Shown here: one piece after another, positions 4,918 through 30,225 of the stretch | Layout: each line of letters starts with the position of its first letter | How positions within the stretch are numbered: the first letter of the stretch is position 1 | NCBI GenBank assembly: GCA_026983515.1 | Contig: JALWHT010000161.1 | Coordinates: forward strand, 1-36,555 | DNA length: 36,555 nucleotides | From: Sulfurovum sp. | Lineage (GTDB): Bacteria; Campylobacterota; Campylobacteria; Campylobacterales; Sulfurovaceae | Direction: 5' to 3' | The notes under the pieces: model-generated | Database searches by the model: none | Told to the model about the DNA's origin: nothing | Seen by the model: only the letters and a program-made list of their open reading frames with translations | Translations under genes and position numbers: made by a program

Positions 4918-5019
4918 GTAGGGTGTTGTGCACCACAGACACTTCCTTTGGTCGCCCTCGCAACACCACTAGTATCATTTTGCATACACAATTGGTGTTG
5001 TCAGGAAACAACACCCTAC
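4918..5019. repeat. palindromic element copy A, with an insertion in the left arm
   Basis: Begins GTAGGGTGTTGTG and ends ACAACACCCTAC. The right arm is intact (GGTGTTGT / ACAACACC stem). The left arm is interrupted by about 28 bp between GGTGTTGTG and CGCAACACC, making this copy 102 bp against 72-74 bp for copies E and F. It lies in the 263-bp gap between the small acidic protein and tRNA-Pro. The rest of that gap is AT-rich with no gene seen; a run of seven T on the minus strand after the tRNA may end its transcript. Confidence 0.85.
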
Positions 5020-17383: not shown

Positions 17384-17392
17384 ATACCAAAA

Positions 17393-17420
17393 CTATTCAC
17401 TATTCACTATTCACTATTCA
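17393..17420. repeat. 7-bp tandem repeat, four copies, before sdhA
   Basis: Four exact copies of CTATTCA, 28 bp, followed by CTCACAT. It ends 23 nt before the sdhA start, in the only space where its promoter or leader could lie. Confidence 0.9.
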
Positions 17421-17443
17421 CTCACATCTACCAAGGCAAAGCC

Positions 17444-19078
17444 ATGGTAGATGTGTTGGTTATCGGATCAGGCGGTGCAGGTCTCTCTGCCGCACTCGCC
17501 GCCAAGGAGGCAGGTGCTTCGGTACTTGTCGTAGGTAAAATGTATCCTACCAACTCCCAGACCTCAATGGCGCAAGGGGGCATGAACGCAGCGCTTGGTA
17601 ATGTCGAGGAAGATCACGTCTCACTGCATATCGCCGATACCATCAAGTCAGCTCACGGGCTCTGTGATGAAGATATGGTACGCCATATGTGTGCCGATGC
17701 ACCCAAGACCATCGATTGGCTGGAAACCCTCGGTATGCCCTTCTCACGAATAGAAGCATCGCACAGCGATGCAAACCACAACTCTTCACTCTTCACTCCT
17801 CACTCCTCACTAAAATCTGTCGCCCAGCGACAGCTCGGCGGTGCGAGCGCCAAACGCGCCTGCTATGCGCAGGACTATACCGGACTCAAGCTGCTGCATA
17901 CACTCTATGACAACTGTCTAAAAGAGGGGATCGCTTTTTTAGATGAACACTTTTTGCTTGAATTGATTGTCCCTGACGATACTATCAAGGGTGCCGTTGT
18001 ACTTGATATCCGAAGCGGTGAAGTCAAACAGATCGATGCCAAGTCTGTCATCATCGCTACAGGCGGATACGGGGACATCTACCACAGTTACACCACCAAT
18101 ATGTACGGTGCATCTGGAGACGGCATCGCGGCTGTACTGCGTGCAGGCGGTGCGGTAAGCGATATGGAGTTTGTGCAGTTTCACCCTACAGGGCTCAAAC
18201 ATTCAGCCATTTTAATGAGTGAGAGTGCACGGGGCGAAGGGGGATACCTTGTCAACAGCAAACAAGAACGCTTTGTTGATGAGCTAAAACCTCGTGATGA
18301 AGTGGCTCGTGCAATCTTTGAGCAGTTGCAAAAGAAAGAAGAGGTCTTTTTGGACCTACGTCATTTGGGGGAAGAGAAACTCGTGACACTGCTTCCGCAA
18401 GAGGTAGCACTTTGCAAACTTCACGAAGGTGTTGATCCTGTCTCGGAGCTTGTCCCCATCAAACCTGTCACACACTACACCATGGGCGGTATCGATGTGG
18501 ACTATGCACTGGAGGTAAACGGTATCAAGGGCTGTTTTGCCGTGGGTGAGTGTGCCAATGCCAAAGTCCATGGTGCCAACCGTCTTGGGGGCAATTCACT
18601 GCTGGAGATCACCGCCTTTGGGCGATTTGCAGGGGAAAATGCCTACAAACATGCCGTCTATGCCAGCAGCAAACCTGCCAATAGCAGCGTATTACACGCG
18701 TGCCAAAAGAAGATAGAGAGACTCTTTACTCAGGAAGCTCCGACCAGTTTCTATACCCACCGCAAAGCACTTGGCAAACGCTTTTATGAAAACGTGGGTA
18801 TCGTCCGCACTGAAGCGGGGCTGACTCAGGCACTCGAAGAGGTGGTCGCCACCCAAGTCGCACTCAAAAAGATGGGTATCCAGGACAGATCCAAAACCAA
18901 CAACCAAAATCTTATAGAGTTTCTGGAGTTCGAAAACGCTCTCATGCTTGCCCCTACCATCATCTCTGCCGCACTGGCAAGAAAAGAGAGCCGCGGGGCG
19001 CACTACCGAAGTGACTATCCGCAGAGTGATGATACCCATTTTAAAAAGCATATCATCTTACAGTGGAAGGATAAATAA
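17444..19078 (+). CDS. sdhA: succinate dehydrogenase/fumarate reductase-type flavoprotein subunit
   Basis: 544 residues. It carries FAD and interconverts succinate and fumarate. FAD motif VIGSGGAGLSAALAA at 6-20; ATGGYGDIY near 205; substrate residues QFHPTG, RDEVARAI (catalytic Arg), HYTMGG and HGANRLGGNSLLE are all kept. The residue that binds FAD covalently in classic SdhA/FrdA (His in SHTVxAQGG) is Gln39 here (SQTSMAQGG), so FAD should be non-covalent, as in L-aspartate oxidase. Between residues 113 and 123 a tandem 7-bp repeat is read as NSSLFTPHSSL. The iron-sulfur subunit lies 127 nt downstream. L-aspartate oxidase is the alternative; the adjacent SdhB argues against it. Confidence 0.85.
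   Translation: MVDVLVIGSGGAGLSAALAAKEAGASVLVVGKMYPTNSQTSMAQGGMNAALGNVEEDHVSLHIADTIKSAHGLCDEDMVRHMCADAPKTIDWLETLGMPFSRIEASHSDANHNSSLFTPHSSLKSVAQRQLGGASAKRACYAQDYTGLKLLHTLYDNCLKEGIAFLDEHFLLELIVPDDTIKGAVVLDIRSGEVKQIDAKSVIIATGGYGDIYHSYTTNMYGASGDGIAAVLRAGGAVSDMEFVQFHPTGLKHSAILMSESARGEGGYLVNSKQERFVDELKPRDEVARAIFEQLQKKEEVFLDLRHLGEEKLVTLLPQEVALCKLHEGVDPVSELVPIKPVTHYTMGGIDVDYALEVNGIKGCFAVGECANAKVHGANRLGGNSLLEITAFGRFAGENAYKHAVYASSKPANSSVLHACQKKIERLFTQEAPTSFYTHRKALGKRFYENVGIVRTEAGLTQALEEVVATQVALKKMGIQDRSKTNNQNLIEFLEFENALMLAPTIISAALARKESRGAHYRSDYPQSDDTHFKKHIILQWKDK
17782..17809. repeat. 7-bp tandem repeat, four copies, inside sdhA
   Basis: Two copies of CTCTTCA followed by two of CTCCTCA, 28 bp, read in frame within sdhA. 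It is related to the CTATTCA repeat 360 bp upstream and falls in a loop between SRIEASHSDAN and SVAQRQLGGAS. Confidence 0.9.
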
Positions 19079-19096
19079 TGATATTACACAATTTCC

Positions 19097-19188
19097 GTAG
19101 AATGTTGTACCCTTACAACACCGATATCATAAATAGTACAACGATCTCCTTCTCTGAGAAAAGGTGTTGTGGAGGCACAACACCCTAC
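19097..19188. repeat. palindromic element copy B, before sdhB
   Basis: Left arm GTAGAATGTTGTA-CCCT-TACAACACC keeps a 7-bp stem with an A-T pair at the loop. Right arm GGTGTTGTG-GAGG-CACAACACC ends in CTAC at 19188. sdhB starts 17 nt later with AAAGGA between. The element fills most of the 127 nt between sdhA and sdhB. Confidence 0.85.
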
Positions 19189-21772: not shown

Positions 21773-23155
21773 ATGAAACTCACCGAACTGCAAGCCATCG
21801 CCAAACGTCTGAGCAACTTCACTTTCATCTCTCGTGCAAGACGTGTCGAGGACAACACCATCGAGATCGTCTTTGACAAAAAGCAAAGCTACTTTTTCAA
21901 TATGACCCGCGGGCACAGTTTTGTCTACAAAGCCCCCAGCCAGCGTCCGCTTCAGGGCTACAACGCACCCTTTGACACACTGCTGCACAGCCTGCTTGCC
22001 GGCAGCAGGCTACTTGAGGTCACTGTGCCGGGAAATGACCGCATCCTGCGATTCAAAATTGCACCTAAGAGCGCCTACAAAAACCAGACGGTCTATCTCC
22101 AGCTGGAGTTTACCGGCAAAAACACCAATGCCATTCTGCTCGATGAGAATGAAACCGTGATCGAAGCACTGCGACACATCGACGGACAGCAGTCGTTTCG
22201 TGTGGTACGCCCCGGGGTGGAGCTTCTGCCCATTCCCCGTAGGGTGCTGTCCCCTGACAGCACCGATCACCACAACAAAGAAGAAGGTATTGTCGGGGGA
22301 CAGCACCCTTCAGATATCGATCTACTTTTAGAGAAACGCTATCAGACCATACAACAACAGCGCCTTTCCCAACTCAAGCAGCAAAAGCTTACCCAGACAG
22401 CCAAAAAGATAGCAAAGCTGCAAAAGGAGATAGACAAACTTCCCAGTCCCCAGAAACTCGAAGCGCAGGCAGACACCTACGGCACCTACGGCAACCTCAT
22501 CCTTGCCAACCTCTACCAGATTAAACCCTACGACACCAAGCTCAAAACATGGGATTTTGAAGGCAATGAAGTAACAATCCCCCTGCCCAAAGATATCAAG
22601 GTAAACCGTTTGAGCGACCACTACTTCAACCTTGCCAAACGCGCCAAGAACAAAGCCAAAAACATCCACATCGAAAAAGAGAATCTCCAGAGCAAAAAAA
22701 GCTTTTATGAAAATATCCACTACGCTATCACACAAGCCAAAGAGCCCTACGAGCTGGAGCTTCTGGTACCAAAACGGGGCAAATCCCAGCGCAAAAAAGA
22801 GAAGATGCGTGAAGGGGAACTCTTTTGGATAGAGGACTACAAAGTGCTTGTCGGACGCAACGCCAAAGAGAATCAGGCACTGCTCAAAGCTGCCAAGAGC
22901 AACGACATCTGGATGCACACCCGAGAGATCCCCGGATCGCATGTCATCATCCGCACCGACAAGCAAAACCTACCTGACTCCGTCCTACAGGCTGCTGCCA
23001 AACTCTGTGTGGACTTCTCCACAGACCAGCCGGGCAACTATCTTGTCGACTATACCAAACGCAAATTTGTCAAGATACAGGAGGGCTCCAACGTAGAGTA
23101 CGACAAATACCAGACCATCCCCGTGCTCAAAGAAGGGGTGGAAATACGCATTTAG
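21773..23155 (+). CDS. NFACT family protein (RqcH/FbpA-like)
   Basis: 460 residues starting MKLTELQAIAKRLSNF; members bind stalled large ribosomal subunits and tRNA and add alanine tails in ribosome rescue. NFACT-N part about 1-150 with the Asp-Arg motif in VPGNDRILRF (near 87); coiled coil about 185-225 and 285-320; NFACT-R part about 350-455 with DIWMHTREIPGSHVII. Shorter than B. subtilis RqcH (about 570). Residues about 156-179 (RRVLSPDSTDHH...GGQHP) are encoded by a palindromic repeat in frame, at the junction of the N domain and the coiled coil. Start chosen over an earlier ATG by family alignment. Confidence 0.85.
   Translation: MKLTELQAIAKRLSNFTFISRARRVEDNTIEIVFDKKQSYFFNMTRGHSFVYKAPSQRPLQGYNAPFDTLLHSLLAGSRLLEVTVPGNDRILRFKIAPKSAYKNQTVYLQLEFTGKNTNAILLDENETVIEALRHIDGQQSFRVVRPGVELLPIPRRVLSPDSTDHHNKEEGIVGGQHPSDIDLLLEKRYQTIQQQRLSQLKQQKLTQTAKKIAKLQKEIDKLPSPQKLEAQADTYGTYGNLILANLYQIKPYDTKLKTWDFEGNEVTIPLPKDIKVNRLSDHYFNLAKRAKNKAKNIHIEKENLQSKKSFYENIHYAITQAKEPYELELLVPKRGKSQRKKEKMREGELFWIEDYKVLVGRNAKENQALLKAAKSNDIWMHTREIPGSHVIIRTDKQNLPDSVLQAAAKLCVDFSTDQPGNYLVDYTKRKFVKIQEGSNVEYDKYQTIPVLKEGVEIRI
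22239..22309. repeat. palindromic element copy D, inside the RqcH-like gene
   Basis: Left arm GTAGGGTGCTGTC-CCCT-GACAGCACC is a perfect 9-bp stem; right arm GGTATTGTC-GGGG-GACAGCACC has one mismatch and lacks the final TAC. It is open in the host frame, adding about 24 residues. Confidence 0.9.
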
Positions 23156-27392: not shown

Positions 27393-28469
27393 ATGTCTAT
27401 TGTTCTTCTTGGTTCCACCGGCTCCATTGGGGTCAATACCCTCATCATTGCCAAACGCTACAACATTGAAGTGGAAGCTCTCGTTGCGGGGAACAACATC
27501 GACCTGCTCAACAAACAGATCACCACATTTGCTCCCAAAATGGTTGCCATCGCCCACGAAAAAGACAGGGCGCGTGTCAATCACTCCGATGTGCGTGTCG
27601 GCACAGAGGGTATCCTCTCCATTATAGAGGAGGCACAAAGCCCTACTGTGGTCAATGCACTGGTTGGCTACACAGGTCTTGCTCCTACCCTCAAAGCAAC
27701 CCAACTTGGCAAAAAGGTTGCCCTTGCCAACAAAGAGTCACTGGTAGTTGCCGGTGCGTTTATCGATATGGGTCTGATCACCCCCATCGACTCCGAGCAC
27801 TTCGGGCTCTGGTACCTCATGAACAACCGCCCCTTCTCCAAGCTCTACATCACCGCAAGCGGCGGAGCCTTCAGAGAGTGGGAATTGGAGAAGATGAAAG
27901 ATGCCATCTTCGCAGACGCCCTCAAACACCCCAACTGGTCGATGGGAGACAAGATCACCATCGACTCGGCGACCATGACCAACAAACTCTTTGAACTCCT
28001 CGAAGCCAAGTGGCTCTTTGGCACTGTCAACATCGATGCCGTCATAGAGAAAAAATCGATCATCCATGCACTGGTGGAATTCATCGACGGCTCCACCACC
28101 GCCCATTTCGCCGGTGTGGATATGAAGCTTCCCATCGCCTTTGCCCTCAGAGAAAAGGTGACAGAGCCCATCCTTCCAGCGGTAGATCTGCTTGGTATCG
28201 GAGATCTCTCCTTTGCACCTATTGAAGAGGCACGTTACCCTATCTGGAGCATCAAAGAGCACATTTTAAAATATCCTCACCTTGGTGTCGTCGTCAATGC
28301 CGCCAATGAAGTTGCCATTGAAGCATTCAAAAAAGAGCAGTGCAGTTTCTTTGGGATGAGCGATATTGTGCTGGATGCCTACAGACATTTTGAAGATGTG
28401 GTACCAAAAAATATCGAGGATATTATTGAGATTGATAGAGAGGTCAGAGCCTATGCAACAGCCCTATAG
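27393..28469 (+). CDS. dxr: 1-deoxy-D-xylulose 5-phosphate reductoisomerase
   Basis: 358 residues, the compact form usual in Campylobacterota (E. coli 398). First committed step to MEP in isoprenoid synthesis, using NADPH. LLGSTGSIGVNT (4-15) binds NADPH; LANKESLVVAG, PIDSEHFG (metal-binding Asp/Glu), TASGGAFREW, GDKITIDSATMTNK and VVVNAANEVAIEAF are all present. The TAG stop is supplied by the left end of repeat copy E. Works upstream of ispA in the same pathway. Confidence 0.97.
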   Translation: MSIVLLGSTGSIGVNTLIIAKRYNIEVEALVAGNNIDLLNKQITTFAPKMVAIAHEKDRARVNHSDVRVGTEGILSIIEEAQSPTVVNALVGYTGLAPTLKATQLGKKVALANKESLVVAGAFIDMGLITPIDSEHFGLWYLMNNRPFSKLYITASGGAFREWELEKMKDAIFADALKHPNWSMGDKITIDSATMTNKLFELLEAKWLFGTVNIDAVIEKKSIIHALVEFIDGSTTAHFAGVDMKLPIAFALREKVTEPILPAVDLLGIGDLSFAPIEEARYPIWSIKEHILKYPHLGVVVNAANEVAIEAFKKEQCSFFGMSDIVLDAYRHFEDVVPKNIEDIIEIDREVRAYATAL

Positions 28470-28539
28470 GGTGTTGTCCCCTGACAACACCACATATACA
28501 TTCATGTCTCATTGGTGCTGTGAGGGCACAGCACCCTAC
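28466..28539. repeat. palindromic element copy E, between dxr and the hydrolase
   Basis: 74 bp. Left arm GGTGTTGTC-CCCT-GACAACACC and right arm GGTGCTGTG-AGGG-CACAGCACC are each perfect 9-bp stems with different but compensated pairs; the loops CCCT and AGGG are complementary. The left end gives the dxr stop codon and the right end (CCCTAC) abuts GGAGG of the next gene. Confidence 0.95.
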
Positions 28540-29104: not shown

Positions 29105-29176
29105 GTAGGGTGTTGTGCCCCCACAACACCGTGAATTTGGATAGTGTTTTGGTGTTGTCAGGGGACAACACCCTAC
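29105..29176. repeat. palindromic element copy F, before tsaD
   Basis: 72 bp. Left arm GGTGTTGTG-CCCC-CACAACACC, right arm GGTGTTGTC-AGGG-GACAACACC, both perfect 9-bp stems; ends GTAGGG and CCCTAC intact. The last base touches AGGAG, the ribosome binding site of tsaD, and the ATG is 10 nt away. Confidence 0.95.
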
Positions 29177-29186
29177 AGGAGCACAG

Positions 29187-30200
29187 ATGATTTTAAGTAT
29201 CGAAAGCTCCTGCGACGACAGCTCCATCGCTATCACCGAGATAGATACCCGCAAGGTGCTCTACCACAAAAAGATCTCCCAGGAAGCTGAGCATGCCTGC
29301 TATGGCGGTGTGGTACCCGAACTGGCATCACGTCTGCATGCGGTAGCACTGCCCAATATCCTTGAAGAGACCAAACCCTACTTTGACCGACTCAAAGCCG
29401 TTGCTGTCACCAACCAGCCCGGACTGGGTGTAACCCTGCTTGAGGGGATTGCTATGGCAAAGACACTGGCAACACTTCTGCATATTCCGCTCATCCCTGT
29501 GCACCATCTCAAAGGGCATATCTATTCACTCTTTATCGAAAAACCGACCCGTTTTCCCCTGCTGGTACTGCTGATCTCTGGCGGGCATACGATGGTGGTA
29601 CGTGTTGAAAGCTTTGAGAAGATGGAGATACTGGCAACCAGTATGGATGACAGCGTGGGAGAAAGCTTTGACAAGACTGCCAAAATGATGGGACTTGGAT
29701 ACCCCGGTGGTCCCATCATCGAACAGCTTGCAAAAGAGGGGGACGAGAATCGTTTTGACCTTCCTGTACCGCTTCGCAACTCCAAACTGATTGCCTTCTC
29801 CCTCTCTGGACTTAAAAATGCCGTCAGACTTGTCGTTGAGAAACTTGGTGGTGCAGAGGCAATGAGCCATCAGGACAAATGTGATCTTGCTGCCTCCTTC
29901 CAAAAAGCGGTCAAACTGCATCTGCTTCAAAAGAGTAAAAAAATCTTCAAGTCCGAGCCCATCAAAGACTTTGCCATCGTTGGCGGAGCCTCTGCCAACC
30001 TCTACCTTAGAGATGCCTATGAAAATCTCTGCCGCGAGTTTGGCAAAACCATGCACACCGCACCTTTAGAGTACTGCTCGGATAATGCTGCTATGATCGG
30101 GAGATATGCACTTGATGCCTATGAAAGAAAACTATTTATCGATCCGAATGAAATCAATATTGCAAGCAATAGAAAATTGGAAACAGGACAGATGCTGTAG
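29187..30200 (+). CDS. tsaD: tRNA N6-threonylcarbamoyladenosine transferase
   Basis: 337 residues. With TsaB/TsaE it moves the threonylcarbamoyl group onto A37 of ANN-decoding tRNAs. ASKHA fold with [30 protein letters not shown], the metal ligands His107 and His111 in [16 protein letters not shown] and [12 protein letters not shown] (third ligand Asp). AGGAG at 29177-29181 adjoins repeat copy F. Its TAG stop lies in repeat copy G. Confidence 0.96.
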
Positions 30201-30225
30201 GGTGTTGTCAGGGACAACACCCTAC
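30197..30225. repeat. palindromic element copy G, single perfect hairpin after tsaD
   Basis: GTAGGGTGTTGTC-AGG-GACAACACCCTAC: a 13-bp perfect stem with a 3-nt loop, so one arm carries both outer ends. The tsaD stop TAG is bases 2-4. It may serve as a terminator for tsaD though no T run follows. The gap of about 155 bp to gyrB otherwise holds only the gyrB promoter. Confidence 0.9.

Follow-up and report, generated by a model that had tools for sequence, protein, structure and literature searches.

A REPIN read in frame as the interdomain linker of an NFACT/RqcH-like protein, and recurrent repeats in protein linkers of Sulfurovum

Introduction

Palindromic repeats that stand in frame in housekeeping genes are known from Rickettsia (the Rickettsia palindromic elements, RPE, of Ogata and colleagues). 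The locus described here raises the question of what kind of repeat can be read through in the middle of a conserved protein, how it came to be there, and whether its peptide or its hairpin matters to the host. The window, by which we mean the whole stretch of 36,555 nucleotides that was analysed, is contig C161 of a Sulfurovum MAG (1.85 Mb in 207 contigs; G000 below). An original prediction made from its sequence had placed a palindromic repeat in frame inside an RqcH-like gene, between the NFACT-N domain and the coiled coil, had likened it to the Rickettsia elements, and had taken the insertion to be recent or structurally kept.

Results

The host gene encodes a protein with the NFACT-N, coiled-coil/M and NFACT-R parts of the RqcH/NFACT proteins, which matches structures of B. 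subtilis RqcH (E = 1e-28) and has an aligned counterpart of the RqcH DR motif. Of 78 congeners, 70 have an orthologue. Comparison with the closest relatives gives a dN/dS of 0.045-0.054 for the sequence outside the linker, and the gene is therefore under strong constraint and, as had been supposed, intact. In the alignment to RqcH, no HhH domain was found between NFACT-N and the coiled coil: the alignment passes from RqcH residue 173 to residue 286 while the query advances from 161 to 197, so that the linker alone stands where the RqcH domain order puts the HhH domain (residues 174-285; PMC8373112). Short NFACT versions also occur in other families of the order. The AlphaFold model, predicted from four sequences, has a mean pLDDT of 39.7 and is too poor for use. 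The features of the locus are as follows.

21773..23155, + strand: NFACT/RqcH-like gene of 460 aa that carries the insertion (Pfam NFACT_N and NFACT-R; PDB RqcH 7aqc, E = 1e-28)
22238..22315, + strand: REPIN-derived linker, codons 156-181, replacing a native linker of ~13 residues (orthologue alignments)
22239..22264, + strand: left REP arm GTAGGGTGCTGTCCCCTGACAGCACC, GTAG plus a perfect 9-bp hairpin; reads RRVLSPDST
22265..22285, + strand: REPIN spacer, 21 nt; reads DHHNKEE; identical in G009
22286..22311, - strand: right REP arm GAAGGGTGCTGTCCCCCGACAATACC, inverted and degenerate, with GAAG for GTAG and one stem mismatch; reads GIVGGQHP

The element at 22239-22311 is a REPIN, that is, two inverted GTAG-tagged REP hairpins, here lying in frame within the NFACT/RqcH-like gene. 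The left arm has the form of a GTAG REP, a hairpin with an unpaired GTAG at its 5' foot, and the perfect hairpin described for it in the original prediction is a 9-bp stem behind the tag. The right arm has two mismatches to the family pattern and is 88% complementary to the left one over 24 nt. With their tags outside, the two arms fold into a single long hairpin, with a z of -6.4 for DNA and -7.5 for RNA, and none of 200 shuffles folded as well. An Rfam search returned no family covering the element. The insert had been equated with residues 156-179 (RRVLSPDSTDHHNKEEGIVGGQHP), and it does lie in an open frame at the junction of NFACT-N and the coiled-coil part, but its limits were drawn too narrowly, since the right arm ends at 22311 and the replaced linker as a whole comprises residues 156-181. 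Five of the six reading frames of the arm sequence are free of stop codons, and the translated arms give the peptides RVLSxDNT and GVVxxQHPT.

The same repeat is dispersed through the genome. A search of G000 for the exact arm pattern gave 57 matches, whereas the reversed control pattern gave 0. A tolerant search yields ~70 arms, which make up 46 elements (24 pairs and 22 single arms) and in which the four positions of the GTAG tag are conserved in 67, 69, 70 and 70 of the 70 arms. Two stem subtypes are found among these source elements, 49 TA and 6 CG. Most copies are intergenic, with 4 of 46 elements inside genes in G000 and 4 of 40 in G073. The window itself holds five further copies.

4994..5019, - strand: REP copy outside genes
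19097..19188, no strand assigned: REPIN between genes (arm pair)
28466..28539, no strand assigned: REPIN that runs into the 3' end of dxr and supplies its stop codon (TAG, 28467-28469)
29105..29176, no strand assigned: REPIN between genes, before tsaD (arm pair)
30197..30225, no strand assigned: collapsed, fully palindromic REP, its TAG being the tsaD stop codon (30198-30200)

In G000, the TAG of eight REPs closes a candidate open frame of at least 120 codons. REPs also stand in frame in RHS/YD-repeat proteins with the peptide SRVLSPDNT, at 1448-1473 of L224, a Sulfurovum contig, and at 495-520 of L202, a contig labelled Micrarchaeota that is probably misbinned; one exact match to the pattern in an open reading frame of Paracoccus denitrificans (L197, 5395-5420) is probably due to chance. 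A different kind of repeat, tandem heptamers, is present in the window at 17781-17811 (ACTCTTC/ACTCCTC, in the gene at 17444-19078) and at 17392-17422 (ACTATTC). The heptamers at 17781-17811 are in frame in a FAD-binding flavoprotein, where they form part of SDANHNSSLFTPHSSLK, and congeners have this peptide again in linkers of MurD and of the permease.

Copies of the window family flank intact RAYT genes on both sides in four genomes (G015, G075, G024 and G031), while other RAYTs in the genus are flanked by other GTAG hairpins. The RAYTs flanked by the window family have the motif PDHIHM together with a conserved Tyr motif, and that of G015 matches E. coli TnpA-REP (PDB 4er8, E = 1.4e-19). 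Genomes with a cognate RAYT, the remnant of G000 included, have more arms (p = 5e-5 by a statistic that ignores relatedness). This remnant, detected by protein search at C54:45844-46209 (within the region C54:45717-46345; L399, 1374-2002), has three flanking REPs and is disrupted by an internal deletion and by a stop in IWQ. The cognate RAYT of G000 is thus dead, and the REPs of this genome have probably lost their mobility, except if the sequence absent from the assembly contains an intact gene. The only Y1 transposase of G000 detected by Pfam (L039) was considered as a mover and rejected, being of a different type and having no such REPs nearby. On this genomic association, we infer that the REPs are moved by RAYT.

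The NFACT linker could be read in 67 congeners, of which 42 have a native linker, 11 a full REPIN (the much degraded copies of G065 and G067 among them), four the left arm only (G095, G078, G086 and G087), two (G018 and G033) a different GTAG REP pair with its tags inside (GTAGGGGCAGATTCCATATCTGCCC) and eight some other repeat or an unclear linker. The native linker is of the type IPP[FHY]ERxEE..xDID and variants, with ~13 residues between IP and ID; since it is also found in deep branches of the genus, it is the ancestral type. Relatives that lack the element thus bear out an insertion. The borders are not the clean ones that a simple insertion had led one to expect: the REPIN linker has 26 residues where the native one has ~13, the native linker is absent wherever the REPIN is present, and none of these linkers offers an exact pre-insertion site with a duplication, the native sequence being replaced rather than interrupted. 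Nor does the insertion look recent. G009 has the same full REPIN with an identical spacer although its core dS is 0.91, and the closer relatives G095, G078, G086 and G087 retain the left arm only.

On a tree of NFACT built without the linker, the REPIN carriers are scattered, with at least 10 changes of state. A model with all carriers in one clade was rejected (AU p = 1.6e-49, for a group picked after the data had been seen), and the carrier G015 is sister to G024 and G073, which have native linkers (support 100). The inserts are confined to species that have the REP family elsewhere in the genome. Over residues ~161-195, G000 resembles G009 more than it does its three closest relatives, which are the more similar ones along nearly all the rest of the gene: in a mosaic scan of 387 windows outside the linker there were three exceptions, all adjoining it. 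In G015, the stretch after the linker has an identity to its sisters of 0.57-0.60, compared to 0.81-0.88 elsewhere. Position 185, directly behind the linker, is the column of the gene that best separates the two groups, with L, V or I in most carriers and mostly Y, F or C in native species. The mosaic identity of G000 and G015 argues for local replacement of linker alleles, probably at least in part by short-tract recombination, and each NFACT copy of the window family (family 1) may go back to its own insertion or to recombination. The 'NKEG'-like residues shared before the right arm were rejected as proof of a common descent of the NFACT copies, because a similar E-G occurs at PALP copies.

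G000 has three further in-frame copies, in MurD (L017), in an ArsP_1 permease (L076) and in a PALP enzyme resembling ACC deaminase/D-cysteine desulfhydrase (L079). In G073, the intragenic REPs lie in MurD, PriA, phosphomannomutase and a Cca-type nucleotidyltransferase; as this genome is a single contig, assembly error is not their cause. In NFACT, MurD, PriA and Cca the repeat lies in the stretch that joins two domains. The PALP site is a loop between ALFLQK and VYTxPCVGD, readable in 29 species: five loops are native (6 residues), four carry the window family, five carry GTAGGTCGGGGT.., another GTAG REP (family 3) that flanks a RAYT in G014, two carry GTAGGGGCAGTC.., a third REP family at this site, and 13 hold heptamers or other repeats. 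At least 12 changes of linker state are needed on the PALP tree, where the four family-1 carriers fail to form a clade (p = 6e-6) and the five family-3 carriers could be one (p = 0.45). Several REP families stop at the same codon there, their GTAG end (..CTAC) immediately preceding the conserved GTx-Tyr-Thr codons. Among 50 MurD linkers, 16 are native (4 residues) and nine carry the window REP or REPIN, some of them degraded; that of G021 carries GTAGGGTGGGCATTCCTGCCCACC, which is exactly the hairpin flanking a RAYT in G017, and others hold heptamers or a GCATCGCAAAGCGATGC hairpin. A second composite coding repeat is seen in MurD linkers (L390, L426 and L430-L433), in which a GCATCGCAAAGCGATGC or GTATCGCAAAGCGATAC hairpin adjoins heptamers and gives the peptide [AV]SQSD. 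The permease loop has the same multi-repeat pattern as NFACT, PALP and MurD.

Discussion

Our study suggests that the linkers of several Sulfurovum proteins have been filled repeatedly by mobile repeats, and we consider neutral colonisation of tolerant linkers by REPINs of the RAYT type, together with local allele replacement, to be the likely explanation. The element consists of two GTAG REPs joined head to head and belongs, as a non-autonomous DNA element, to the RAYT/TnpA-REP type; a copy of it would have entered the interdomain linker of the NFACT/RqcH-like protein in a Sulfurovum ancestor. Its arm peptides are short and could have been accepted by the linker as a spacer. The REPIN allele would then have been inherited, reduced to half copies by in-frame deletion and replaced locally, partly by short-tract recombination, while other REP families and heptamer repeats would have entered the same linkers independently. 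The inserted peptide would accordingly be neutral to its host, and the recurrence would come from the tolerance of the linkers rather than from a preference for the target.

The reading that competes best, although we think it improbable, attributes the recurrence to more than tolerance, namely to a preference of the transposition system for certain targets or to a selective advantage of the added spacer. The end codon shared by REP families in PALP, where the GTAG end precedes GTx-Tyr-Thr, would fit with this, as would the displacement of the same native NFACT residues by REPINs in separate lineages and the pyrimidine that precedes GTAG (position -1) in 61 of 70 arms. This bias could however belong to the element itself, the same linkers also hold heptamer tandem repeats, for which no link to RAYT is known, and the ~10% of elements that are intragenic in G000 and G073 are what would be expected if most coding insertions are purged. 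There is some small chance that the linkers between domains in a certain set of Sulfurovum proteins are a shared landing niche that different RAYT/REP systems prefer and overwrite, through target preference or selection of the spacer; if so, linkers would evolve as populations of mobile DNA.

It appears unlikely to us that the hairpin itself is maintained, whether in mRNA or in DNA, with the peptide as a by-product; a delay of the ribosome between two domains would be an example of such a role. The fold is strong (see above), 92.6% of the cells of the left-arm stem alignment are paired in NFACT among 12 distinct sequences, five cells are changed on both sides (one of 500 shuffles scored as high), and the close relatives G086 and G095 differ by a C/G versus a T/A stem pair. 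We did not accept this covariation as proof of selection on the hairpin, because the CG and TA subtypes are both common among source elements, so that paired changes may have been copied in, and because several copies are broken (stem pairs of G009, G020, G065 and G067). Moreover, the long hairpin is lost in the half copies, and sister species work without it.

It is very improbable that the element is an IS-derived MITE with a TA target duplication instead of a REP. The arm ends, TAGGG..CCCTA, would allow TA to be read as a duplicated target, but 67 of 70 arms keep the G in front of TAG, each arm is a hairpin by itself, the 22 single arms come close in number to the 24 pairs, and RAYT genes are flanked by the family. 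Finally, the idea of an ancestral linker whose palindrome is due to chance or codon bias, which the sharing of the sequence by 15 congeners might suggest, is refuted by the native linkers of 42 congeners, deep branches included, and by the presence of the same repeat at ~45 other places in the genome.

The likeness to the Rickettsia elements holds by analogy, in that a dispersed palindrome stands in frame in coding genes. The class appears to be another one: the REP-flanked RAYT genes point to a GTAG REP/REPIN of the RAYT type, and the GTAG tag and the association with RAYT set the Sulfurovum repeat apart from RPE. In the main text of Di Nocera, De Gregorio and Rocco (2013; PMC3733652), RPE-4 and RPE-6 are grouped with the CGTC repeats, a class that lacks a dedicated transposase. 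The same text describes GTAG REPs that are mostly intergenic, with copies flanking RAYTs, single or dimeric GTAG REPs in frame inside known proteins of several species, tags whose TAG serves as a stop codon, REPs that lie at nearly the same place in the recB genes of two Xanthomonas species, and GTAG repeats in a Sulfurovum strain; it names no Sulfurovum host genes. The window element is of the same kind, its tag, in-frame copies, TAG stops and RAYT flanking being alike. The difference lies in the linkers of several Sulfurovum proteins, which are filled across the genus by several REP families and heptamers, with the native linker replaced. REPINs were defined as two inverted REPs and a spacer that form one long hairpin and are associated with RAYT, singlets being likely remnants (Bertels and Rainey, 2011; PMC3116915); they are described there as extragenic, whereas the Sulfurovum REPIN appears to be read as coding sequence. 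In the text of the open-licence literature, figures and supplements aside, we found no description of a recurrent occupation of linkers by several repeat families across a genus with replacement of the native linker. Intragenic GTAG REPs are thus already known, and it is their recurrent, multi-family occupation of the same linkers throughout a genus that appears to be new.

Translated REPs had previously been scattered cases, and a genus with refilled protein joints offers replicate natural experiments that bear on which protein positions accept mobile DNA, on the origin of new linker sequence and on the target choice of RAYTs. With dozens of alleles each, NFACT, MurD and PALP make these questions directly testable.
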